Below are positions 26,627 to 41,039 of a DNA stretch of 43,969 bases, piece after piece. Source of the stretch: a virus. The notes below the pieces were generated by a model, which made no database searches, had not been told where the DNA came from, and saw nothing but the letters and a program-made list of their open reading frames with translations. The stretch is from positions 1-43,969 of the IMG/VR virus record IMGVR_UViG_3300046451_001604. One strand, given 5' to 3'. The position numbers and the translations under genes were made by a program. Numbering within the stretch: position 1 is the first letter of the stretch; each line of letters opens with the position of its first letter.

Positions 26627-26836
26627 ATGTTACTTTCTCAAATACAGGGCGAAAATAGATACGTTAAGGATTTAGAAACTGGGGCGATACTAAACACTGA
26701 TGTCACAGAAATTAAAAAATCAAAGGCGAGAAAGAAAAAAATGCGAGAAGAAAAAGAAGAAATTCAAATTTTAAAGTCAGAAGTTGCAGATATAAAAACT
26801 CTGCTGTTAGAAATTCACAGAAAGTTAGGTGATTAA
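26627..26836 (+). CDS. Small coiled-coil structural-type protein
   Basis: A 69-residue protein with a short N-terminal YVKDLETGAILNTD motif, a Lys-rich stretch (KKSKARKKKMREEKEE) and a C-terminal heptad-like helix (IQILKSEVADIKTLLLEIHR). It probably oligomerises. It sits between the large gp10-type protein and a fibre gene and overlaps the latter by one base. Function unknown. Confidence 0.6.
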   Translation: MLLSQIQGENRYVKDLETGAILNTDVTEIKKSKARKKKMREEKEEIQILKSEVADIKTLLLEIHRKLGD

Positions 26837-28041
26837 TGGCACGATTACAAAATGTTGATCTTAGCAATTCGGTAAATGCTTGGAGACTGAAAACAAACAT
26901 TACTGCTGGATATATTGGCGACTTAGATGATTTGAATACAAATATAACTAATAGTGTTGTAGGGTCAATAAATTCAATTCAGAGTAAATTTATTATTGGC
27001 GGTGAGGTGCAATCATTGGCAAAAACCGCATTAGCATTATCAACTGGTGGGGCTGGTACTTATGCAAGTTTATCTTATGCCGACTCAGGAGGTATTGGTG
27101 GAGGACTTTTCACATTTACATGTAATCCACTTACCCCAAATGATATTCCTAATTTAGATGCTGGAAAAATTACAACTGGTCAATTTCCATCATCTTTTTT
27201 AACCCAAATGGATGCTGGAAATATAACAACTGGAACATTAAACAGTGCTAGGTTACCTTATTTATCCGCAAATCAAACAACTTCTGACGTATTTCATGTT
27301 GATCGTATCCCAAATCTTTCTGCCACTAAAATAACATCAGGAATTCTTGGTCAAGACAGAATTCCGAATATTCCTTCAAGTAAAGTAATATACGATGGTA
27401 CTAAATTACCACTTTCGGCTATGGACCCTGCCCTTGTTAGAAATAATGTATCCACAATATATACTGGAACTAGACTGTATAATGGTACTAGTACGTTTAT
27501 GAATACAGTTACTGTTGGCAGTCCGGGAGCAACACCAGTTAACTCTACTTTTCATGGTCAAATAGATCATGATGGTAATATTATTCCCAGTACTACCGAT
27601 ATATATCAAATCGGTAGTACTGGATTCAAATATGCTGGTGTATATGCCACTACATTTTTTGGTAATGCCACTTCTGCAAACTTCGCTGACCTTGCGGAGA
27701 AGTATACCACAGATGAAGATTATCCAATAGGAACTGTTATGATGGTTAATTTTGATACTAATGGTGAAACCACAAAATGCGGCACTTCTGGTATTCCAGT
27801 TGGGGTTATCTCAGCAAAACCAGCGTTTTTGATGAACGCTGAAGCGGAAGGACAAGCACTTGCTCTTAAAGGTAGGGTTCCTGTTAGAGTATGTGGTCAA
27901 ATTAGAAAAGGTGAGGCTGTTTATACTTGGAAAAATGGGTGTGGTAGTACAGAATTTAATGGCGCACATATGATTGGAATATCACTTGAGACCAGTGATA
28001 TTGAAGATGAAAAAATGATTGAGTGCGTTCTTAAACTTTAA
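26836..28041 (+). CDS. Tail fibre protein with peptidase-G2-like C-terminal domain
   Basis: A 401-residue protein. The N-terminus (SNSVNAWRLKTNITAGYIGD, LDDLNTNITNSVVGSINSIQ) is related to the fibre after the cassette (EVWRNATNTMAEYVGDPDNL). The middle has repeated fibre turns (ITTGQFPSSFL, ITTGTLNSARLP, ITSGILGQDRIP). The C-terminus (SANFADLAEKYTTDEDYPIG, GVISAKPAFLMN, GRVPVRVCGQIRKGEAVYTW) resembles the peptidase-G2/intramolecular-chaperone domain of phage fibres. Likely a host-recognition fibre. It is the last gene before the accessory cassette. Confidence 0.72.
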   Translation: MARLQNVDLSNSVNAWRLKTNITAGYIGDLDDLNTNITNSVVGSINSIQSKFIIGGEVQSLAKTALALSTGGAGTYASLSYADSGGIGGGLFTFTCNPLTPNDIPNLDAGKITTGQFPSSFLTQMDAGNITTGTLNSARLPYLSANQTTSDVFHVDRIPNLSATKITSGILGQDRIPNIPSSKVIYDGTKLPLSAMDPALVRNNVSTIYTGTRLYNGTSTFMNTVTVGSPGATPVNSTFHGQIDHDGNIIPSTTDIYQIGSTGFKYAGVYATTFFGNATSANFADLAEKYTTDEDYPIGTVMMVNFDTNGETTKCGTSGIPVGVISAKPAFLMNAEAEGQALALKGRVPVRVCGQIRKGEAVYTWKNGCGSTEFNGAHMIGISLETSDIEDEKMIECVLKL

Positions 28042-28104: not shown

Positions 28105-28623
28105 ATGATCACTAAAAGTCAATTCTTGAGTATAATCTCAAGTGATATTGCATATGAGCAAAATATGGTCTATGCCATAGACGAAAATGGTAGAGAACAT
28201 CTCATGAAAAATTTTGCAGATACACTTGCAAATAAAGATACAAATTCAATAAAAATTGAAAGAATGGAAGCATACAACTCGGAAATTTTTTCTTATTGTT
28301 TAGAACTAGAAGATATGTATGAGCATAGTGGTCCAATAACATGTCATTTATTTTATGCTGAAAAAAATACTCATTCATTCAAAAAACATACTGATCCAGA
28401 TAATGTTGTTATATATTGTTGTGAAGGTATGAAAACTATAGCAATGGAAGGTCATACTATGGGCGGTGAACCAGTATTTACTTTGACGGCGGGTACAAGA
28501 TTACATATTCCTGCAAATACTCCACATCAAGCATTTAATGAACATGAAGCAATTACTTTAAGTTTTGGTCTAGAAAAATTTATAGAGGATAAAATAAATA
28601 GTGTTTTGGTCAGTATATCTTAA
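28105..28623 (+). CDS. Cupin-fold protein, possible Fe(II)-dependent oxygenase
   Basis: A 172-residue protein. The C-terminal half is a cupin barrel: HTDPDNVVIYCCEGMKTI, then LTAGTRLHIPANTPHQAFNE. His95 and Asp97 (HTD) with His141 (PHQ) form a plausible 2-His-1-carboxylate metal site, as in Fe(II) oxygenases of the cupin/JmjC type. The N-terminal about 70 residues are not recognised. First gene of the cassette; its end overlaps the radical-SAM gene by 23 bases. A hydroxylase of a peptide side chain is one possibility; a non-catalytic binding cupin is another. Confidence 0.65.
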   Translation: MITKSQFLSIISSDIAYEQNMVYAIDENGREHLMKNFADTLANKDTNSIKIERMEAYNSEIFSYCLELEDMYEHSGPITCHLFYAEKNTHSFKKHTDPDNVVIYCCEGMKTIAMEGHTMGGEPVFTLTAGTRLHIPANTPHQAFNEHEAITLSFGLEKFIEDKINSVLVSIS

Positions 28624-29620
28624 AACCACAGAAACTTGTCAATTAAACTGTAAGCACTGTTTTACTTCTGGTAGCAATGGTGCTAAAATTTATTGGAATA
28701 CTGATAAGATAGTTGATTGGATACATAGATTTCGTGAAGAAAAACCTGCGAAGGGTGATGGTATTCATTTAGAGTTTCATGGCGGCGAACCATTTCTTGT
28801 ACCTGTAGGGCAAATGAGAAAGGTATATGATGCTTGTGATGGTCTTTGGGATAATATGAGTTGGGGTGCAACAACCAATTTAGTGTATAAATTAAAAGAT
28901 CAACATAGAGAATTTATAAAAGGTCCACTTAGAAATAGATTGGGAACTTCATGGGACAGAAAAATAAGATTTGATAATCAAAGACAATATAACTTATGGC
29001 ATAAAAATGTCAAGTCTCTTTTAGCAGATGGTGTAACTATACGTTTGTTTATTAGTCTTACTAAAGATACTTTAGAAAAAGACCCTATTGTATTATTGAG
29101 ATGGTGTAGAAGATTAGGGGTTCAAGAGGTATCTTTAGAGAGATTGACTAATAATGGTTCAGCGCGTGAAGCATCAGAAATATTTCCATCAAATAAAGAG
29201 TTAGATGCTTATTTTTTGAAAATGCATCAACAAAGTGAAGAATATGGGGCGCGAGAATGGTTTGAAAATGATTTTTTTGAAAATATATATGCTAAATTTG
29301 AGAAAACTCTTACGACATGTGGTACTTTTTGTAGAGATTGTGAAACAAAACTATTCACAATAAACGGTGATGGTACAATAAGTGGTTGTCCAAATTCAGC
29401 ACCAGAATTTCAGTTCGGAACTTTAGATGATTCCATTAAAACTCTTATAAATAGTCCTAGAAGAATAAGAACTATTATTGAAGAAAAGATGAGAAACCCC
29501 AATTGTCTCTCTTGTCCTGTTGCAAAATATTGCGGTGGTGATTGTCACCAATTAGGATGGGAAGGTGATGTATGTGGCGCACCTAAAAGTTTAATGATGG
29601 AATTGGCAAAGAATGTCTAG
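28601..29620 (+). CDS. Radical-SAM protein with SPASM-like domain (rSAM 1)
   Basis: A 339-residue protein. The [4Fe-4S] SAM motif is CQLNCKHC (Cys13, Cys17, Cys20), and EFHGGEPFLV is the GGE SAM-binding motif. The C-terminus has many cysteines (CGTFCRDC, GTISGCPNS, CLSCPVAKYCGGDCHQ), typical of SPASM auxiliary cluster domains of peptide-modifying enzymes. The start is GTG at 28601, inside the cupin gene, with AGAGGAT upstream. It lies directly before the Cys-His-tailed protein, which makes that protein the prime substrate candidate. Confidence 0.85.
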   Translation: MFWSVYLKTTETCQLNCKHCFTSGSNGAKIYWNTDKIVDWIHRFREEKPAKGDGIHLEFHGGEPFLVPVGQMRKVYDACDGLWDNMSWGATTNLVYKLKDQHREFIKGPLRNRLGTSWDRKIRFDNQRQYNLWHKNVKSLLADGVTIRLFISLTKDTLEKDPIVLLRWCRRLGVQEVSLERLTNNGSAREASEIFPSNKELDAYFLKMHQQSEEYGAREWFENDFFENIYAKFEKTLTTCGTFCRDCETKLFTINGDGTISGCPNSAPEFQFGTLDDSIKTLINSPRRIRTIIEEKMRNPNCLSCPVAKYCGGDCHQLGWEGDVCGAPKSLMMELAKNV

Positions 29621-29630
29621 GAGATAAAGA

Positions 29631-30500
29631 ATGACGATATCAGACCCTATTACAGAAAATCCTGTAGTTACAAAATACAGACAGTTTGTGACTGATAGAA
29701 TTAATAATCAAATCGTGTATGGAGATGATAATTTACCAAAGCGAAGTATGGCTTCGTTTTTTAATGGAACAACAGATGGAATTGTATCGAATCCTGATCT
29801 TTTTGATGGGCCAATTGATGCTGCAAATATATTTGCTATTCTTTTGAATGATGTTAACAAATATACTAGAGTTAGAAGATTTAACGCGAATATTACAGTT
29901 ACTGGTGGTTCACCTACTGGTAATACACCTATTCCAGCCGTAAATACTTCTGCGAATAATGCCGCAAATTTAGAAAAAGCGTTCGCTTGTGAGTGGGTTA
30001 CGACAGTGAATTCAGGAATTAAAACAGTTCCTATTGGTACAACAGGGCCATGGGATAATAAATCTTGGGCTAATGATTTTTATGCAAAACACAATACTTT
30101 AGGTATCCAAGATTATGATGCTATTCAAATCGCACTAGACTCATCTGGATCATTTATCTCAGCGGTAGCACATAGTGATGTTGGAAATGCTTGCATAAAA
30201 GCAACACAAAAATATGCTGTGACAATCAAAATCCCTGCACTGGTGGGGAGCAGTAAATCATATAATGATATTGGTATTCTGACAGCAAAACATTCATTTG
30301 AAATTGATTCGGCAGATGTTGATCACTCTATGATTGTCCAAGGAGATGTTATGGATGACGCCGACTTTGAACAATTATTCAATAATCTTTATACAGCATG
30401 GGAGACTGTTGCACTGGGTTCCTCACCAATTAATTATAAAGAAGTAGTTTGTCATGCAAATTGTCATGCAAGTTGCCATTCATCAAGAAATAGGAGATAA
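29631..30500 (+). CDS. Protein with C-terminal Cys-His repeat tail; candidate modified substrate
   Basis: A 289-residue protein. The N-terminal about 260 residues look like a folded, beta-rich, fibre- or virion-like protein (SDPITENPVVTKYRQFVTD, ITVTGGSPTGNTPIPAVNT). The last 18 residues are VVCHANCHASCHSSRNRR: three CH dipeptides at exact four-residue spacing (Cys274, 278, 282), then a Ser/Arg end. Only one or two cysteines occur elsewhere. AGGAGATAAA just before the ATG gives strong translation. Being embedded among radical-SAM and oxygenase genes, the tail resembles a RiPP core. Function inferred; metal binding by the unmodified tail is an alternative. Confidence 0.7.
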   Translation: MTISDPITENPVVTKYRQFVTDRINNQIVYGDDNLPKRSMASFFNGTTDGIVSNPDLFDGPIDAANIFAILLNDVNKYTRVRRFNANITVTGGSPTGNTPIPAVNTSANNAANLEKAFACEWVTTVNSGIKTVPIGTTGPWDNKSWANDFYAKHNTLGIQDYDAIQIALDSSGSFISAVAHSDVGNACIKATQKYAVTIKIPALVGSSKSYNDIGILTAKHSFEIDSADVDHSMIVQGDVMDDADFEQLFNNLYTAWETVALGSSPINYKEVVCHANCHASCHSSRNRR

Positions 30501-31161: not shown

Positions 31162-32202
31162 TTGGATTTAGTAGATTTTATTTTAAGAGATAAGAGAGAC
31201 AAACAACAAGAATACACAATTCATTTATTTGAATTTTGTAATCTGTCTTGTCCATTTTGCTGGCAAGACCACGACAACATTGTGGGTATTGATACGGTAT
31301 TAGACAAGTTGGAATCAATAGAAAAGTTTTTTCAAAAAGAGATGCGGAAACATGTAGTTTTAAACATCATGGGTGGTGAAATTTTTGCCGATGAGATTTT
31401 TGATGAAAAACTAAAAAATGATTATATTTCTCTTGCACAAGGCATAACAGACTTAGGAAAAAAATATAAGTTTGAGAGCATAGGTATTAATTGGGTTACT
31501 AACCTTGTAATTAGTAAAAGAGACTATGTGCGCGATCTATTGAAGGCGTGTAGAGATATGGGGTGCAAATCCAAACTCGTAACTTCATATGACCCTAGAG
31601 GTAGATTTAACAAACCAAACTTAGAGATTTTCAAAGAAAATGTATATGATTTCTGGGATGATTTAGAAGGCATAGGAGTCCTTCTTACTAAATCAAATAT
31701 CAAATATTGGTTAAGTGATCCAAAAGATTTTATGCACGAATTATATCATAAGGGTGTTAAAGTTTATGCTGATTACTACATGCCTGATTGTCAGGCAGAA
31801 AGAAGTATGCCGACAGACAAAGAGCATTATGATATTTTCACGCATTTTATAGATAAGTATCCTAAAATTGAGCCTATTCGTTCTTGGATAGAAAATGAGC
31901 GTAATGTTGTTTCATGCAGATCATCTAAATTAGTTCTTGAGGATGGAACCATGTGTTTGTGTGGAAATCTTGTTCAAGAGCCAAGAGATAAAGCGATGTA
32001 CAAAACAGACATACAGAAGGCTAATAACAAACCTATTGAAAAGGCTTTCCTTGAAAAGTATAATTGCTCTACTTGTGAATATTTTCATAGATGTACTCTT
32101 GGGTGTTTCATGGCACATGATTATAAATATGCAGAAGAGGTTTTTGATGAATGTGTCTATAAAATGACACATAGATACATTGAAAATAAAGGATTAAGAT
32201 GA
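31162..32202 (+). CDS. Radical-SAM protein with Cys-rich C-terminus (rSAM 2)
   Basis: A 346-residue protein. The cluster motif is CNLSCPFC (Cys26, Cys30, Cys33) and NIMGGEIFAD is the GGE motif. The C-terminal part has VSCRSSKLVLEDGTMCLCGN and CSTCEYFHRCTLGC, a SPASM-like auxiliary cluster region. The start is TTG, directly after the previous stop; GGAGAAG seven bases upstream supports it. Probably a peptide- or protein-modifying radical-SAM enzyme. Confidence 0.8.
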   Translation: MDLVDFILRDKRDKQQEYTIHLFEFCNLSCPFCWQDHDNIVGIDTVLDKLESIEKFFQKEMRKHVVLNIMGGEIFADEIFDEKLKNDYISLAQGITDLGKKYKFESIGINWVTNLVISKRDYVRDLLKACRDMGCKSKLVTSYDPRGRFNKPNLEIFKENVYDFWDDLEGIGVLLTKSNIKYWLSDPKDFMHELYHKGVKVYADYYMPDCQAERSMPTDKEHYDIFTHFIDKYPKIEPIRSWIENERNVVSCRSSKLVLEDGTMCLCGNLVQEPRDKAMYKTDIQKANNKPIEKAFLEKYNCSTCEYFHRCTLGCFMAHDYKYAEEVFDECVYKMTHRYIENKGLR

Positions 32203-32203
32203 G

Positions 32204-32839
32204 ATGTTTTTTTATAAAAATGGCGATAAATCTCCAATTAGCCAATCCTTTATAAATAGATTTCCAACAAGAAAAAGATTAACTAATCCAATTAAAGAAA
32301 TTGATATAGAGTATAATGTATGCCATACAGTATTTGATTATTTAGTTGATACTAAATTACCACCATGCATTCATTTTTTAGATAATTTTTTGAGAAGTGA
32401 AGTGTACGTGTTTAGTGTTCCACTATCAAGTAATTTATTATCTAAAGTTAATAGTAAATCTATGATGGAAGATTATACTACTCAATTTACTGGATCACCC
32501 AAAACAGTAGTAAATAATGATTATGAGTTAGGATGGATTGGCATAGAGAAAACTAAAAATTATACAATAATGTCAAATATTCAAATAAATGGAATTTATA
32601 GAGATTGCTTAACCAGAAGGCAAGAAATAGATTTTTATAAAACTATGATCAAGTTTTGTAAAGGTGAAATATTGAATATGCCAATTTATGTGCCTACAGC
32701 CGAAACACTATACACACAAATGAAAAAAAACCCTGCACATCCTGATAGTGCTATAATGGAAACACCTTACACATCTAAGGTTTTAAAGGGGTTCACAAAG
32801 ATACAATTTATGAATATGGAGTTTTATAAAAATGATTAA
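32204..32839 (+). CDS. Cassette protein, unknown function
   Basis: A 211-residue soluble protein starting MFFYKNGDKSPISQSF, with KLPPCIHFLDNFLRSEVYVF and YELGWIGIEKTKNYTIMSNI. No domain recognised. A TATAAATA string at 32251-32258 lies within its coding sequence and is probably chance. It overlaps the next radical-SAM gene by eight bases. Confidence 0.6.
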   Translation: MFFYKNGDKSPISQSFINRFPTRKRLTNPIKEIDIEYNVCHTVFDYLVDTKLPPCIHFLDNFLRSEVYVFSVPLSSNLLSKVNSKSMMEDYTTQFTGSPKTVVNNDYELGWIGIEKTKNYTIMSNIQINGIYRDCLTRRQEIDFYKTMIKFCKGEILNMPIYVPTAETLYTQMKKNPAHPDSAIMETPYTSKVLKGFTKIQFMNMEFYKND

Positions 32840-34499
32840 AGTAGGTTATGTGAATCCAACAGGAATACCCTCAAGAGCAGAATTTAACTATCATTGGATG
32901 CTTTTTAAATGTTTTTATGAAGATTATGGAAAATATCCAGAAAAAGTTACTTGGGTGGAGCCAATATTCAAATGGAATGAAGTTACAATACAAGATTGTT
33001 TGGATAATGTTAAAGGGTGTTCCATTGTATTTTTTACCAACTATGTTTGGAATTATAAAATTAACCAAAGGATACGAAATGGTCTTGATCCAGATACCAT
33101 AGTAGTTATGGGTGGGCCTCAACAAGACCCTGATATAATAAAAGATTATGACTATGTTGCAGACCCTCTTGCTCCAGGAGAAATATTTGTACAATACTTT
33201 CTTGATATGTATCTAGAGGATTCTGTTGATAAGAAAAAGATTCCATTTTATTTGGGTAGTTCTTTAAAAATTCCTCTTCCATTTGGACATACGAATGTAT
33301 ATAGGAGGTGTGAAGATTATTTTACCAAAGAATATGAACACTTCATAAAAAATATAGACCTATATGAGCGAATAACATTGATATATGAAAGCACTAGAGG
33401 ATGCCCATTTAAGTGTTCTTATTGCGAGTGGGGTGGTGGTACTGGCACAAAGGTTTTAAAAAAACCTATGAATATCATAAAAGATGAAATGGAATTTATA
33501 GGGGGCTTTAAGGGTGTGCATATCGATTTGTGTGATGCTAATACAGGAATGTTTAAAGAACGCGACAGAGAAATGATGATGCACATGGTAAATAATGGAG
33601 TTCAAATTGGTGAAAATCTATCGGTATTAAAAACTTTAAAATTGGAGCAGAAAAAAGAAATGCTTGATTTTATGATTGAGCATGATATTACTCGCCAAGT
33701 CATCAGTATTAGTTTACAGTCTATTTCAGAAGAAGCGAGAAGAATAGCAAATAGAAGAGACCTTAATGTTGAAGAAACCTATGAATTGGTAGATCATTTA
33801 ACTAGTAAATGGAATAATTTTAAAGAAAAAGAATTATGGTTAGATTTAGAATTAATTTTAGCAATGCCAGGGTCTACATTAAAAGATTTTTACGAAGAAT
33901 TTAAAGTATATTATAGAGTTGGATATAATGAAGGAAAGGATTGGGAAGAATGGAAAGGTCTTGATGTATGGGCAGACACTAGATATCCTTATATGGTTTT
34001 ACCAGCAACTGAAACTGCTAGTAAAGAATATCAAGAAAAATATAAAATAAAAACATCAAAGGTACTGACACAATTTGATGGCAACTATAGTGGAAAATGG
34101 GATGATGTTGAAGTAAATCCAATATATGGTGATGTGTCATACGAATATGATACTATAGTTGAATGTTTTTCATATACGTTTGAAGAATATTTAGAAATGT
34201 TCATAATGAATTTATTCACACCACATGTGGGTTTAAGTTTTATAAAAGAATATACCAATTATGAAAACGTGAGTGAAGTGGCAAAAGAGTTGTGGAATAT
34301 ATTGAACGATATACCAATGTTTTTTGTTTACAAAGAACTGATAAGAAATATATTTCTTGATAATAATTCTCATAGTATAGATAAGTTTGAAGTGGGTAGT
34401 TTTAAAGGCAAAGATATTGTAAATGAAATGAAACTCTTACTAGATAAGAATGAAGAAATGGTAAAGGAAAGATTAGATGAATTCTGTAGAAATTTATGA
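32832..34499 (+). CDS. Cobalamin-binding-type radical-SAM protein (rSAM 3)
   Basis: A 555-residue protein. Residues about 1-140 look like a B12-binding Rossmann domain (GCSIVFFTNYVWNYKINQ, DTIVVMGGPQQDP, YDYVADPLAPGEIFVQYF). The DxHxxG base-off histidine motif is not seen. The radical-SAM cluster motif is CPFKCSYC (Cys191, Cys195, Cys198) after LIYESTRG, with HIDLCDANTGMFKERDRE typical of the family. B12-radical-SAM enzymes often methylate unactivated carbons. The substrate is unknown; the cassette suggests a protein or peptide. Confidence 0.82.
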   Translation: MIKVGYVNPTGIPSRAEFNYHWMLFKCFYEDYGKYPEKVTWVEPIFKWNEVTIQDCLDNVKGCSIVFFTNYVWNYKINQRIRNGLDPDTIVVMGGPQQDPDIIKDYDYVADPLAPGEIFVQYFLDMYLEDSVDKKKIPFYLGSSLKIPLPFGHTNVYRRCEDYFTKEYEHFIKNIDLYERITLIYESTRGCPFKCSYCEWGGGTGTKVLKKPMNIIKDEMEFIGGFKGVHIDLCDANTGMFKERDREMMMHMVNNGVQIGENLSVLKTLKLEQKKEMLDFMIEHDITRQVISISLQSISEEARRIANRRDLNVEETYELVDHLTSKWNNFKEKELWLDLELILAMPGSTLKDFYEEFKVYYRVGYNEGKDWEEWKGLDVWADTRYPYMVLPATETASKEYQEKYKIKTSKVLTQFDGNYSGKWDDVEVNPIYGDVSYEYDTIVECFSYTFEEYLEMFIMNLFTPHVGLSFIKEYTNYENVSEVAKELWNILNDIPMFFVYKELIRNIFLDNNSHSIDKFEVGSFKGKDIVNEMKLLLDKNEEMVKERLDEFCRNL

Positions 34500-35007
34500 C
34501 GATTTTTTGAATCAAGAACAAATTAATGATATACGAAATATGTTTTCTTTTGATAAGTCGGCAATGGATGATCTTCCAAGATTTAATATGCAAAAAAATA
34601 TGGCAATAAATATTAAAAATCATATGGACGATTTTCCAAATTTAAATAAAGCAAAAACTATTGCATTATGTAAAGATTCAAATATAGGTAAAATTGCTAT
34701 ATCACATTTAATTAAGATTGTCAAGTATGAAGAAGATAATAATGAAAATATGATTTGGGAACCACATCATGATGGAACAGAGTCTAAAATCATTACTTTA
34801 TTTTTTATAGATATAGATGATAATGGTTGGCAAGGTGGTGAGTTAGATATTTATGATTCTCTTGATATTTTTCAATATCCAAAAAATAAGACTAGAATAC
34901 AACCAAAAGTGGGTAGGTTAGTAGTTTTTAATAGTTCTATGGTACATTGTATTAGACCTTATTTTGGCTCTAAACCAAGAATGACTGTAAGTGTGGGTTG
35001 GGAATAA
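34477..35007 (+). CDS. Fe(II)/2-oxoglutarate oxygenase, prolyl-hydroxylase-like
   Basis: A 176-residue protein. The pattern EIYDDFLNQEQINDIRNMF, EPHHDGTESKIITLFFIDID, GGELDIY, VGRLVVFNSSMVHCIRPYFG, PRMTVSVGW is the classic 2OG-Fe(II) oxygenase barrel. Fe ligands are His97, Asp99 (HxD) and His157; Arg168 would bind 2-oxoglutarate. It likely hydroxylates a peptide or small molecule. The gene starts inside the end of the B12-radical-SAM gene with AAAGGAAAG upstream. Confidence 0.85.
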   Translation: MNSVEIYDDFLNQEQINDIRNMFSFDKSAMDDLPRFNMQKNMAINIKNHMDDFPNLNKAKTIALCKDSNIGKIAISHLIKIVKYEEDNNENMIWEPHHDGTESKIITLFFIDIDDNGWQGGELDIYDSLDIFQYPKNKTRIQPKVGRLVVFNSSMVHCIRPYFGSKPRMTVSVGWE

Positions 35008-35008
35008 A

Positions 35009-35563
35009 ATGAATATTGATAAAAATTCTGGATGCTTTATTGAGAACAATCCCGATATGTTTATTCATATAAAAGATACGTTACCAAAATTAAAATGGTT
35101 ATACTTAAAGAGAAGCGATTCAAAAAAATCTGATAGATGGCAAAGTGTGGCATGGAATTATTATTTTCACTCTATGAGAAGTAAGATGTTAAAAACTGCC
35201 GATTTACTTTGGGAAACATACTTACCGTGGGAGACCGAAAAGAACTTGGATTATTATACTATGTGGAATGGGACTGACACTGGTTCGTGTGAGTGGCATC
35301 ATGATACTGAAGGTGGTAACTTACAATTTAATTTGTATTTTACAGACTCAGAACCGAATAATGGTGGTGAGATAATGTACAGAAATATGAAAGAAAATAA
35401 TAGAATAACTACTTTTCATCTACCTAAAAAATACGATATAGTAATGGGAAGTGTAGGTGATGATTTAAAGTTCCAGCATAGAGTTGAGCATACAAGAGAA
35501 TTGAAGCAAGAAAGAATAACAATGCTTTTTAGATTTAAAGTAAAGGAATCTCCATGGAAATAA
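35009..35563 (+). CDS. 2OG-Fe(II) oxygenase-like protein, tandem copy A
   Basis: A 184-residue protein. EWHHDTEGGNLQFNLYFTD, NNGGEIMYRN and FQHRVEH, QERITMLFRF indicate a 2OG oxygenase core: His97, Asp99, His157 and Arg169. It is clearly paralogous to the next gene. ATG 35009 was chosen over an upstream start at 34991 because it follows the stop of the preceding gene and aligns with the paralogue's start. It overlaps copy B by ten bases. Confidence 0.78.
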   Translation: MNIDKNSGCFIENNPDMFIHIKDTLPKLKWLYLKRSDSKKSDRWQSVAWNYYFHSMRSKMLKTADLLWETYLPWETEKNLDYYTMWNGTDTGSCEWHHDTEGGNLQFNLYFTDSEPNNGGEIMYRNMKENNRITTFHLPKKYDIVMGSVGDDLKFQHRVEHTRELKQERITMLFRFKVKESPWK

Positions 35564-36138
35564 AAGACCAAGGATACGTTATGGAAAATAATAAAAATAT
35601 GTTTATTCATATTGATGATACCATTCCAAGATTAAAATGGTTAAGTATGAGTAGTGATAATATTCCAAAAATAAAATGGTTAAATGAGGGTGATGATTGT
35701 AAAAGTTATAGCATCTGTTGGAATTATCATTTGAATGGTATGCGAAATAAGATAAAGAAAACTGCTGATTTATTGTATGAGACATATCTATCAAAGTATG
35801 ACAATTGTTATGAGAACAAAAAATTAATATATTCATATATTTGGAATGGAGCATGTGATGGTTCTAGTTCTTGGCATAATGATTTAAAAGAAGGTGCAAA
35901 TGTTTTCTTTTTATTATATTTTACTGATATGGAACAAGGAGTCGGCGGCGAAATAATGTTCCGAAATATGACCCAAAATAAAAAAGTCACTTGTTATCAC
36001 TTACCAAAAAAATATGATCTTATATTAGGTAGCCAAGATTTAAATTTTCAACATAGAGTTGAGGATTTTAGAAAACCTAACGTGCAAAGAATCACAATGA
36101 ATTTCGGATTTAATATAAAGAATTCTCCATGGACTTAA
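35554..36138 (+). CDS. 2OG-Fe(II) oxygenase-like protein, tandem copy B
   Basis: A 194-residue paralogue of copy A. Shared blocks are ENNxxMFIHIxDTxPxLKWL, KTADLLxETYL, GGEIMxRNMxxN, HLPKKYDxxxGS and FQHRVE. The site is His108, Asp110 (HND), His167 and Arg179. It starts in the TCTCCATGG junction at the end of copy A and ends with the same junction at the start of the next gene, so the duplication carried the overlap with it. AAAGGAA is the ribosome binding site. Confidence 0.78.
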   Translation: MEIKDQGYVMENNKNMFIHIDDTIPRLKWLSMSSDNIPKIKWLNEGDDCKSYSICWNYHLNGMRNKIKKTADLLYETYLSKYDNCYENKKLIYSYIWNGACDGSSSWHNDLKEGANVFFLLYFTDMEQGVGGEIMFRNMTQNKKVTCYHLPKKYDLILGSQDLNFQHRVEDFRKPNVQRITMNFGFNIKNSPWT

Positions 36139-37163
36139 TTATTAAACCAACAGAATTATGCAATTTTAAATGCACATTTTGTTCTTCATCTAAAATTACT
36201 CAAGAGGATAATACTGCTGTACTTGATTTGAATAAGATATTCAAATTTCTTAAAAGATTTCCTGAAACGCAAACTATTATCGTAAATGGTGGTGATCCTT
36301 TAATGATGAAACCCAATTACTATTGGAAGTTAATAGAGTTTTTAGATAAGCATGACATGCCAGCGACGATATCCCTTACAACTAATTTGTATCCTTTTTT
36401 AATGAAACCAAAAAAATGGGTAGAACTCTTTAATCATAATAGAATTGGTGTTGGAACTTCATTTCAGTATGGTGGGGGTAGACTTAAAGGTGATTACAGC
36501 GAATTTACCGAAGAAGATTTTTGGAAGTGTTCTGATGCGATGCTTGAGCATGTGGGGTATAGACCTTCGTTTATTGCAGTGATTGTGGATGAAAATGAAG
36601 ATACTGTAATACAGACTGTAGAACTTGCTAAGAAGATGGATGTTGTTTGTAAGGTGAATTATGCTATGGCATCTGGTTCTCAATCTGCGCCATATAGACT
36701 TTCAAAAATATATGAAAGATATATTCAAATTTGGAAAGCAGGTTTAAGTGATTGGGAACATAACACTCAACAAATGTTAAATAGGTTAAGAAAAAAGCCA
36801 ACTATATGTCCTCAGTCCAGAAATTGCGATAGCGGTATTCGTAATATTCAACCAGAGGGTGATTATTATTCTTGTGGGGCTTTTGGTGATGATCTTGACA
36901 AACCAATAGATTTTGAATATGAAATGAATGGAGGTTTTGAAACACCTCTCAGTAATGATTTGAGTTTAATGAGTCTTAAAAATTCATGTTTTACTTGTCC
37001 TATGTTTGAAATTTGTAACGGATGCCGTAAAACAATTAAAGACTTGAAACAACATAACATGGTTGAAGATCATTGTAAACATATGAAATCTATGGCAAAA
37101 GACATAATTTCTTTAAATAGAATGGACACTAAAGTTACTGAATATGTAAGAGAATATGCATGA
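36129..37163 (+). CDS. Radical-SAM protein with SPASM-like domain (rSAM 4)
   Basis: A 344-residue protein. The motif CNFKCTFC (Cys11, Cys15, Cys18) follows MDLIIKPTEL; IVNGGDPLMM is the GGE-equivalent, with Asp for Glu. C-terminal cysteines ICPQSRNCDSGI, GDYYSCGAFG, CFTCPMFEICNGCRK, EDHCKHM fit a SPASM domain. It overlaps copy B by ten bases and the next radical-SAM gene by four (ATGA), so translation is coupled. Confidence 0.83.
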   Translation: MDLIIKPTELCNFKCTFCSSSKITQEDNTAVLDLNKIFKFLKRFPETQTIIVNGGDPLMMKPNYYWKLIEFLDKHDMPATISLTTNLYPFLMKPKKWVELFNHNRIGVGTSFQYGGGRLKGDYSEFTEEDFWKCSDAMLEHVGYRPSFIAVIVDENEDTVIQTVELAKKMDVVCKVNYAMASGSQSAPYRLSKIYERYIQIWKAGLSDWEHNTQQMLNRLRKKPTICPQSRNCDSGIRNIQPEGDYYSCGAFGDDLDKPIDFEYEMNGGFETPLSNDLSLMSLKNSCFTCPMFEICNGCRKTIKDLKQHNMVEDHCKHMKSMAKDIISLNRMDTKVTEYVREYA

Positions 37164-38089
37164 TTGTATCTGTAAATCCATCTTATTTTTGTAATTTCCG
37201 CTGTGATTTTTGTTATCTTACTTCAAAACAATTAGGCGATCAGAAAAAAATTTCAATTGAGAGACTTGATGAATTACTTTCACAAATTCCAGATATAGAG
37301 CATGTTGATCTATATGGCGGTGAAATTGGTGCTATGAAAAAAAATTATTTTTATGATGTTAAAAATACAATTAAAAAGTATTATGATGGAAAAATAAATA
37401 TCAACACAAATTATTCCATGATGCACGATGGTTTCTTTGATGATGACGTTTATTTATCAGTTTCTTATGATTTTGAAGCAAGAGAGAAATCAGATTTAGT
37501 GTTTCAAAATATGATGATGAGTACAGTGCCTCTCGCAGTTCTTATTCTTGCATCACCACAAGTTTTGAGTATGAATGTAAGTAAGATGATAAAACTATTG
37601 AATATGTGTGGTGCTGTTAAATCAGTAGAAATTAAGCCATATTCTATTAATCAAGCAAATGCGTTTACTGTGACGCATTTGGATTTTGAAAACTTTGTTA
37701 TTCAATGGATGGAACTAGAAGATCAGATGAATTTTCAGTTTGTAAATGGAGATAAGATAGAGGAGTCTTTTAATGGACTATACAATGCATTTTCGGATGA
37801 TCATGTTTACATTACTCCTAACGGCAAGTTTGGAGTACTGGAGTTTGATGTACATGATAGAGAATACTTTCACGAATTGGATTCTTTCCAATCTTATATA
37901 GAATGGACAGAAAAAGAAAAAGAAGAAATGATAAGTCCGATTTGCACTTCATGCAAATATTTTGGTAATTGTTTAACAGAACATTACCGATATGTCAAGG
38001 ATTTAGATAATGGGTGTAACGGATATAAAGGACTATTGGATTGGTATGAAAAAATGGAGAACAGCATCCCAAGTTTATCACTTACTTAA
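37160..38089 (+). CDS. Radical-SAM protein with short Cys-rich C-terminus (rSAM 5)
   Basis: A 309-residue protein. CNFRCDFC (Cys11, Cys15, Cys18) and VDLYGGEIGAM are the radical-SAM motifs. The C-terminus CTSCKYFGNCLTEHY and DNGCNGYKGL has fewer cysteines than a full SPASM domain, closer to a twitch-type domain. It is related in size and layout to rSAM 4 and starts in its stop codon. Substrate unknown. Confidence 0.8.
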   Translation: MIVSVNPSYFCNFRCDFCYLTSKQLGDQKKISIERLDELLSQIPDIEHVDLYGGEIGAMKKNYFYDVKNTIKKYYDGKININTNYSMMHDGFFDDDVYLSVSYDFEAREKSDLVFQNMMMSTVPLAVLILASPQVLSMNVSKMIKLLNMCGAVKSVEIKPYSINQANAFTVTHLDFENFVIQWMELEDQMNFQFVNGDKIEESFNGLYNAFSDDHVYITPNGKFGVLEFDVHDREYFHELDSFQSYIEWTEKEKEEMISPICTSCKYFGNCLTEHYRYVKDLDNGCNGYKGLLDWYEKMENSIPSLSLT

Positions 38090-38456
38090 TAGAGAGTATT
38101 CAGATGACTTGAATAAAATGGATGTGACATGGAGTGAAGAAAATATAGTTAGAGATGCTGTTTTGCATTTCAATGAATATGTTGATGAAACTATTAGACC
38201 AGCGAAATCATATTTTGTTGCTATATGTTATGCACATTGGTTATCTGAAGATTTCAATGAAGATTTCTTTGAATTACTAAATGATAAATACTTACTGGCA
38301 GAGAATGATCCACATTTTATTCAATATAATTTAGACATTGATACTTATGATCAAATATTGAAAAATATAGAATTTCCTTTAGAAATGATAGGAATGGTTC
38401 CAGATGTTAGAAAATATTATGAGGATGAGTTTAAACTAGCACTAAAAACCTTATAA
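38046..38456 (+). CDS. Cassette protein, unknown function (last gene)
   Basis: A 136-residue helical acidic protein (WSEENIVRDAVLHFNEYVDE, KSYFVAICYAHWLSEDFNED). It overlaps the end of rSAM 5 by 44 bases. ATG 38046 is the best internal start; an ATG at 38010 in the same frame is possible, and no strong ribosome binding site decides between them. Its end merges with a late promoter box. No domain recognised. Confidence 0.55.
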   Translation: MKKWRTASQVYHLLNREYSDDLNKMDVTWSEENIVRDAVLHFNEYVDETIRPAKSYFVAICYAHWLSEDFNEDFFELLNDKYLLAENDPHFIQYNLDIDTYDQILKNIEFPLEMIGMVPDVRKYYEDEFKLALKTL

Positions 38457-39845: not shown

Positions 39846-41039
39846 ATGGTTAGAATAACAGATTTACCCGCCGCCACAAACAGTGATTTAAGCACCACAC
39901 AAAACTTTCTGGTAGTAACTGGCACCAACTTGTCTGGAGGTTATGGTGCTGCTAGAGTTTCAATGGGGGAAATATCTTCTTTCTACAATGCTACTGGTGC
40001 TTTAACTAGTGTTGATGTTTTGGACCTAATAGATTCTAGTTATATTTTTGGTAAAGTAAATAACTCTACTCTTAATTCATTAACAAAACCAACTACAATG
40101 ACATTTGCGGCAGTCACTTCTAAACCTAGCACATTAGGGGGTTATGGAATTAATGATGGACTAAGTTTTTCTGATTTAAAAGATGAAGATAATATGGCAT
40201 CAAATAGTCCTATCCATGTCGCTTCACAACAATCAATAAAAGCATATGTCACAAGCGCAGTCGCTGCTGTTGCGGTGTCAAATACAGATACAGTTACAGA
40301 AGGTTCAACTAATTTATATTATACAGATGCAAGAGTAACTAGTCGTATTACAGGTTCCAATCTTAATATGGGAAGTAATAATATTATTACAACTGGTAAA
40401 TCTTTGTATGCAAATATGTATTCGGCAGAAGGCGATCTGCCTTCAGCGTCAACATATCACGGTATGTTCGCTCATGTGCATGGAACTGGTAAGGGATATT
40501 TTTCTCATGGTGGGGCGTGGCACAAATTAGTTGATGAAACAAATCTATCAACTCAAGTTGATTCTGCATATGTATTAGCACGATCTTCCGCTGGAGTCGA
40601 TTCTGCTTTGATAGTTGGTACTATAACTGATCCAAAATATCTTAGGTCAGATGTATTAGATAATGGACATTCATTATCTCTCTCATCAACATTACATGCT
40701 GATGGTGCGATTACATCAAATGCTGATATTACTGCATTTAATTCCGCTTCTGATAGGACATTAAAAGAAAATATTGAGCGCATTGAGAATGCTCTTGATA
40801 AAGTCGGCACACTTGCTGGATATACATTTAACTATAAAGGCCGAGAAGAAAAAATGTCTGGTCTTATGGCAGATGAAGTTTCTGAAGTTCTTCCAGAAGT
40901 TGTTTATGAATTTGATGGCGAACATAAAGCAATTCGTTATGGTAACATGATGGGTCTTATTGTAGAGGCAATAAATGAGTTAAGGGTGGATGTTGAATAT
41001 CTTAGGGAAAAGATAGAGTCTAATGCCGACACCATTTAA
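39846..41039 (+). CDS. Tail fibre with self-cleaving S74 chaperone domain
   Basis: A 397-residue protein. The N-terminal part has fibre motifs (LYYTDARVTSRI, VDSAYVLARSSAGVDSALIV). Residues 302-397 are an endosialidase-type intramolecular chaperone (peptidase S74): SDRTLKENIERI, GTLAGYTFNYKG, SGLMADEVSEVLPEVV, IRYGNMMGLIVEAINEL and a coiled-coil end. Self-cleavage would occur before Ser302, with Lys307 as the likely partner, after it has trimerised the fibre. TAGGAGAAAA precedes the ATG. It overlaps the adhesin gene by 17 bases. Confidence 0.87.
   Translation: MVRITDLPAATNSDLSTTQNFLVVTGTNLSGGYGAARVSMGEISSFYNATGALTSVDVLDLIDSSYIFGKVNNSTLNSLTKPTTMTFAAVTSKPSTLGGYGINDGLSFSDLKDEDNMASNSPIHVASQQSIKAYVTSAVAAVAVSNTDTVTEGSTNLYYTDARVTSRITGSNLNMGSNNIITTGKSLYANMYSAEGDLPSASTYHGMFAHVHGTGKGYFSHGGAWHKLVDETNLSTQVDSAYVLARSSAGVDSALIVGTITDPKYLRSDVLDNGHSLSLSSTLHADGAITSNADITAFNSASDRTLKENIERIENALDKVGTLAGYTFNYKGREEKMSGLMADEVSEVLPEVVYEFDGEHKAIRYGNMMGLIVEAINELRVDVEYLREKIESNADTI

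Follow-up and report, generated by a model that had tools for sequence, protein, structure and literature searches.

Why should a virus encode, a few bases downstream of a SPASM radical-SAM gene, a protein that ends in three evenly spaced Cys-His pairs followed by a run of arginine residues? The window analysed here, a virus contig of 43,969 nucleotides (IMG/VR record IMGVR_UViG_3300046451_001604), carries baseplate and tail-fibre genes. An open reading frame on its forward strand (29631-30500) encodes a 289-aa protein that ends VVCHANCHASCHSSRNRR, with the tail codons at 30450-30497 and the stop codon at 30498-30500, and the SPASM radical-SAM gene, rSAM1 (28601..29620, + strand), ends 10 bases 5′ of this frame. 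A preliminary description of the window had reported both features correctly and proposed the tail as a candidate core of a RiPP-like precursor, noting that a large structural protein would be an unusual leader. The DNA pattern for CHxxCHxxCHxxRxR occurs once in the window and not at all in 100 shuffles.

The tail gene belongs to a cassette with all genes on the + strand, in the order cupin, rSAM1, CH-tail protein, P4, rSAM2, P6, B12-type radical-SAM protein, three 2OG-oxygenase-like proteins, rSAM3, rSAM4, and a protein of ~150 aa. The cassette sits between a tail-fibre gene (26836..28041, +; phrog_19602 tail fiber, E 1.3e-12) and fibre genes from 38496 onward, which include a tail fibre with an S74 chaperone-of-endosialidase domain (39846..41039, +; PF13884, E 6.4e-14; phrog_5668 tail fiber, 2.8e-27), and therefore lies inside a fibre module. 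The first gene (28105..28623) encodes a small cupin/JmjC-like protein with an HTDxD ... PH metal-ligand motif that matches Pfam Cupin_2 at E 1.3e-5 (25.2 bits, against a cut-off of 27.2) and, over a short stretch, JmjC_2 at E 1.4e-5 (25.1 bits, cut-off 22). Its homologues retain HxDxD in nearly all cases and PH in many, and the gene is found upstream of rSAM1 in most loci. With these motifs and the short JmjC_2 match, the protein could be a hydroxylase that acts on the tail. P4 (30508..31161; phrog_20767) is a partner protein encoded 3′ of the tail gene in most loci. It is followed by rSAM2 (31162..32202; phrog_1802, E 5e-41), a second SPASM-like radical-SAM protein that is present in most cassettes and matches Pfam Radical_SAM at E 8.7e-5, below the cut-off. 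P6 (32204..32839) lacks a family match and occurs only in the cassettes of close relatives. The B12-type protein (32832..34499; Pfam Radical_SAM, E 6.7e-8) reaches 83 of 700 bits with the KedN5 C-methyltransferase model/subfamily. The three 2OG-Fe(II) oxygenase-like proteins are encoded at 34477-35007 (Pfam 2OG-FeII_Oxy_3, E 1.1e-7), 34991-35563 (a weak phrog_19592 match only), and 35554-36138 (homologues seen again in other cassettes). The genes for rSAM3 (36129-37163; Pfam Radical_SAM, E 2.2e-10) and rSAM4 (37160-38089; E 1.5e-7) form a pair that is conserved in phages and Bdellovibrionota, and a protein similar in size to the ~150-aa product of the last gene (38010..38456; phrog_20737) is encoded near this pair in Bdellovibrionota loci.

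The tail itself, CHANCHASCHSSRNRR (30450..30497, +), consists of CHxS repeats, the proposed core, and an Arg-rich end. A tail-pattern scan of viral contigs gave at least 120 matches; of the 120 listed, 101 have a real tail and the rest are low-complexity sequence; matches of the form CHRHCHSH were rejected as low-complexity chance hits. CHxSCHxSCHxSRxRR-stop is the exact C-terminus of an open reading frame in at least 101 phage contigs. In an alignment of 48 proteins with a mean column identity of 24%, the only invariant columns are one proline and the C, H, C, H, C, H, R, R, and R of the tail, and the tail is likewise invariant in alignments A2 and A4, where mean column identity is 24-25%. 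The bodies of these proteins are folded, 120-360 aa long, and highly diverged, with 116 non-redundant bodies falling into 12 BLAST families with a median length of 190 and a median of 0 Cys. The 177 different DNA sequences of the tail all encode the same C, H, and R residues but use their synonymous codons without restriction (TGT/TGC, CAT/CAC, AGA/AGG/CGN), which indicates protein-level selection on the tail.

For tails found by pattern, the query itself dictated most of the C, H, and R residues, and a fair, unbiased test is therefore provided by loci anchored on rSAM1. We collected the 80 loci nearest to the window rSAM1 with no tail criterion: all 74 complete loci end in the tail, the other six being cut off by the end of a contig, and 41 of the tails are non-redundant after a k-mer filter. 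The rSAM1 gene directly adjoins the tail gene in 70 of the 74, and its constant downstream neighbours are the CH protein and P4. In the tail-anchored direction, among the matches listed, a cassette radical-SAM gene flanks the tail gene in 82 of 101 loci and rSAM1 is directly next to it in 64 of 101. Searching the whole records of 17 other tail loci located rSAM1 elsewhere on the same contig in 11; the six records that lack it are contigs of 5.6 to 39 kb. These 17 loci mostly represent a class with twin CH proteins of ~127 aa, encoded in tandem, both tailed, and kilobases away from the radical-SAM genes (L004, L029, L038, L040, L065, L086, and others). Given the 82 of 101 flanked loci and the 11 of 17 with rSAM1 on the contig, tailed homologues do not regularly occur apart from radical-SAM genes, the pattern that the preliminary description had named as evidence against its proposal. 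The part of that proposal that stands is a stable, widespread pairing of a C-terminal repeat with a SPASM gene, which has the form of a precursor with a conserved core beside its enzyme in 74 of 74 complete loci and extends across phages and Bdellovibrionota; the role of rSAM1 as the modifying enzyme is a presumed one. Because the tail is the one constant feature of the neighbour of rSAM1, the simplest account would be that rSAM1 modifies the CHxS units.

In a 24-row alignment of proteins with 39-88% identity to the window rSAM1, the CxxxCxxC motif and the SPASM cysteines are invariant (C13, C17, C20, C244, C247, C263, C302, C305, C311, C315, and C325), and the match to TIGR04085 (35.7 bits) is above the cut-off of 27. 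By these sequence measures rSAM1 is a genuine SPASM enzyme. No curated maturase model comes close to it (best 49 of 300 bits), and among proteins of solved structure the nearest in sequence include sulfatase maturases and ChlB.

The preliminary description had pictured the CH-tail protein (29631..30500) as a fibre-like body with its Cys and His residues on one face of a helix. AF2 instead predicts a compact alpha/beta domain (mean pLDDT 80), with the last nine residues (281-289) disordered at pLDDT <50. The suggested use of structure prediction to look for an exposed tail thus gave a flexible, exposed end. Such an end is well suited to be acted on by an enzyme and offers no support for the helix face, an arrangement that we reject on account of the predicted disorder and of tail variants with Pro-Pro-Pro spacers. 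A match to PHROG 35144 spans residues 234-289. The CH protein has no PDB match at E 0.001, and the best VIA-align result (Z 5.6 over 69 residues) falls within residues 94-207, a region that is largely an insertion absent from short homologues, so we claim no fold. The best viral-library matches to the model include an Atu_ph07 protein of 296 aa, the length of gp170 of that phage. Models of two proteins of Myoviridae sp. ctijX18 in BFVD, A0A8S5USJ8 (660 aa) and A0A8S5USV2 (506 aa), weakly resemble the body. P4 is predicted to be confidently folded (pLDDT 89.6) and also lacks a PDB match at E 0.001; we considered it as a second substrate through its C-terminal LTWGVGAGEV and rejected the idea, since the C-terminus of P4 is not conserved.

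The same cassette occurs in predatory bacteria. A strict tail scan of genomes returned 19 matches, of which 16 are real tails, about half of them in Bdellovibrionota; matches in Frankia, Pseudoalteromonas, and Bordetella genomes were rejected as chance. An rSAM1 homologue at E 1e-90 or better is present in 13 of 241 Bdellovibrionota genomes. The cassette is chromosomal there, lying among housekeeping-like genes and in one case on a contig of 4.15 Mb, and no sheath family scored above cut-off in nine rSAM1-bearing genomes, with the proviso that the family may miss jumbo-phage sheaths. On the rSAM1 tree, the label must switch between phage and Bdellovibrionota at least six times, and the system has therefore moved between them. 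An S74-chaperone-domain protein adjoins the cassette in all eight Bdellovibrionota loci tested. These S74 proteins are short, and several have a prepilin-like N-terminus. In Bdellovibrio, S74-containing MAT fibres are trimeric predator adhesins (PMC10769870); S74-containing proteins likewise stand beside the Bdellovibrionota cassette, but those at cassette loci are short, and the report on MAT fibres makes no mention of radical SAM (PMC10769870). The loci with a complete chromosomal cassette, variant tails, and an adjacent S74 protein (L234-L240 and L251-L258) also encode a ~192-aa protein ending GRHWVKIK and a ~122-aa MNRRxFFT protein. In L256 (9301-12572), with equivalents in L253-L255, three tandem proteins of ~365 aa show faint radical-SAM similarity and are possibly degenerate radical-SAM proteins.

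Variation in the tail shows which of its parts are constant. In a second search, with more diverged rSAM1 queries, 42 loci have canonical tails, 24 have CHxxCHxxCHGS[IL] without RxRR, two have variants, and 12 have no tail in reach. Some of the 12 are contig ends, and in two (L319 and L322) a CH motif occurs at another place. In one 122158-base contig with rSAM1 and rSAM3 (L259), neither a CH tail nor an SRGRR end was found; this is the exception so far, and its rSAM1 possibly has a different substrate. In a freshwater phage clade (L261, L274, L299, and L311), the CH protein ends CHSNCHGSCHGS[IL] with no RxRR, and the tail of phage L037 contains four CH units, so that the repeat number varies. 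Variant Bdellovibrionota tails (CHGNFPPPCHGSRGRR, CHTNVPTPPPCHASRGRR, CHSSHSSHSSHSSRGRR, CHSNHCSHSNHGSRGRR, and CHSNCYTPPPKSRSRR) differ in their number of Cys residues and include a one-Cys HSS-repeat form and forms with Pro-Pro-Pro spacers, so no single Cys-based bond fits all variants. True tandem HSS repeats occur only in the tail of L257, whereas the canonical tail is made of Hx[SN] units at a period of four with Cys. The tails with fewer Cys suggest that Hx[SN] units, and not Cys alone, are the common denominator; as far as these sequences go, these units vary least, Cys accompanies most of them without being required in every one, and the Arg end can be lost independently. We infer that modification falls on the repeat units, the core, and that RxRR serves for recognition or has a function of its own.

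These variants also bear on whether the tail is modified at all. HxH iron sites are present in T4 gp37, and some spike tips are metal-capped. An unmodified tail could similarly stack layers of CH pairs in a trimer that binds Fe or Zn to make a rigid tip, with the radical-SAM cassette acting elsewhere. The regularly spaced Cys/His pairs, the Gly/Ser/Asn residues that serve as spacers, and the placement of the gene in fibre modules are all compatible with a metal site. However, rSAM1 accompanies the tail almost without exception in phages and bacteria alike, and the one-Cys HSS-repeat and Pro-Pro-Pro variants break a constant ligand geometry, which makes this explanation unlikely.

Named cultured phages carry the system as well. 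Although full-length CH protein from the window gave no match in a tblastn search of cultured phages, its last 56 aa did, and all seven cultured jumbo-phage records with rSAM1 have the tail: Atu_ph07 (two records), Phosso, the Burkholderia phages SURPRISE13, FLC6, and FLC8, and pPa_SNUABM_DT01. A tblastn query of 48 aa made of joined tails gave no match, likely because of low-complexity filtering. By gene counting from published anchors (gp125, head completion; gp132, sheath; gp141, lysozyme; and gp215, major capsid), which is consistent throughout, the Atu_ph07 CH protein AUZ94952 is gp170. Most virion proteins of this phage identified by mass spectrometry fall in CDS 31-76, 170-215, and 284-329 (PMC6102473). 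The gp170 gene is the boundary, and first, gene of the cluster CDS 170-215, and from this boundary position gp170 itself was likely detected in virions. The position of gp170 at the start of a virion-protein cluster and that of the window gene in a fibre module count against a classical RiPP, in which the tail would be cleaved and freed as a small modified peptide (a toxin, inhibitor, or metallophore) and the body would be a very large leader. The short invariant C-terminal repeat next to SPASM genes invites that interpretation, as does the clade that lacks the Arg-rich end, since part of the tail may be removable, but we recognised neither a peptidase nor an exporter or immunity gene in the cassette and consider release of the tail very unlikely.

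A different question is whether the cassette serves the tail or something else. It contains many enzymes for one tail (four SPASM-like radical-SAM proteins and a further one of B12 type, 2OG oxygenases, and a cupin), as if it made or decorated a small molecule or surface glycan with the CH protein as a metal-handling accessory, and the extra enzymes may indeed have other substrates. However, the neighbours that constantly lie downstream of rSAM1 are the CH protein and P4 and not tailoring enzymes, and the nearest models to rSAM1 are peptide or protein maturases; we give this explanation only slight credence. Attachment of c-type haem, which the CX3CH spacing within each CHxxCH recalls, has a negligible chance of being correct, as the cassette has no recognisable gene for haem lyase or cytochrome maturation and the motif is lost in the HSS-repeat and Pro-Pro-Pro variants.

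Among known systems, the HSS repeats in one tail, which resemble those of HxsA, make the His-Xaa-Ser system (HxsA TIGR03979, HxsB TIGR03978, and HxsC TIGR03977), in which a protein with C-terminal H-x-S repeats is encoded next to radical-SAM maturases, the closest relative in concept. At the level of profile scores, membership fails at every cut-off: the L257 tail CHSSHSSHSSHSS reaches 16.1 bits against HxsA (E 0.008; cut-off 121.65), rSAM1 reaches 33.5 of 370 bits against HxsB, and rSAM3 reaches 32.2 of 267.9 bits against HxsC. The canonical CH tail also differs in its Cys-containing period of four instead of three, its phage fibre context, its association with P4, and its RxRR end. Maturases of CXXX-repeat peptides and ranthipeptides similarly act where Cys recurs at every fourth residue, but rSAM1 remains below the cut-offs of both TIGR04115 (37.8 of 350 bits) and PapB NF047865 (42.6 of 340), and the putative substrate here is a folded protein of 120-360 aa in a virion module in which Cys repeats are not universal. 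Anaerobic sulfatase maturase (anSME) and QhpD are SPASM enzymes that act on a protein and not on a short peptide, as we propose for rSAM1, and anSME is among the closest solved structures, with a TIGR03942 match of 38.8 bits that is below cut-off. In contrast to these enzymes, the cassette includes no sulfatase or amine dehydrogenase and its repeat tail is at the extreme C-terminus.

We favour, with a probability of roughly 0.7, the reading that the 289-aa protein is a virion or adhesin protein whose disordered tail is modified by rSAM1 at each Hx[SN] unit and stays in the fibre-associated structure. The protein would belong to the tail-fibre/baseplate region of the virion, and the flexible C-terminal tail beyond its folded body would serve as substrate for rSAM1, the product of the adjacent gene. 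The enzyme would probably act on each C/H-x-[S/N] unit, most likely by Cys- or His-centred crosslinking or oxidation, and the cupin, 2OG, and extra radical-SAM proteins may add further chemistry to the tail, with P4 as a putative adapter or chaperone. The modified Arg-rich tip would be displayed on or beside trimeric fibres, where it could touch or breach the outer envelope of the target bacterium. Such a product would be RiPP-like and yet remain on the fibre apparatus, as its tip or as a patch, and predatory Bdellovibrionota would employ this cassette as well, next to S74 fibres of their own.

A cluster of many radical-SAM genes has been described before in phages, as an exchangeable module of Campylobacter phages CP220 and CPt10 that was interpreted as metabolic (PMC2853527). 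The CP220/CPt10 module is like the cassette in grouping many radical-SAM genes, and none of the Campylobacter phage records matched rSAM1. In the open-access literature on radical-SAM enzymes, RiPPs, phages, and virions we found no description of the CH-tail system. A broader proposition, for which we see even odds, is that tailed phages and predators share a dedicated radical-SAM assembly line, which equips a fibre apparatus in contact with the envelope with a covalently modified CHxS tip, and that this represents a new class of protein modification that has been exchanged several times. The tail offers a probable substrate for a radical-SAM cassette that many environmental phages possess and that had either lacked an explanation or been taken for metabolic, and the system is also present in named cultured phages. 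It suggests that virions carry RiPP-like covalent chemistry, and it connects phages with predatory bacteria by a part in common that meets the envelope: a modified tip for touching other bacteria is probably borne by many tailed phages and by some Bdellovibrio-like predators.
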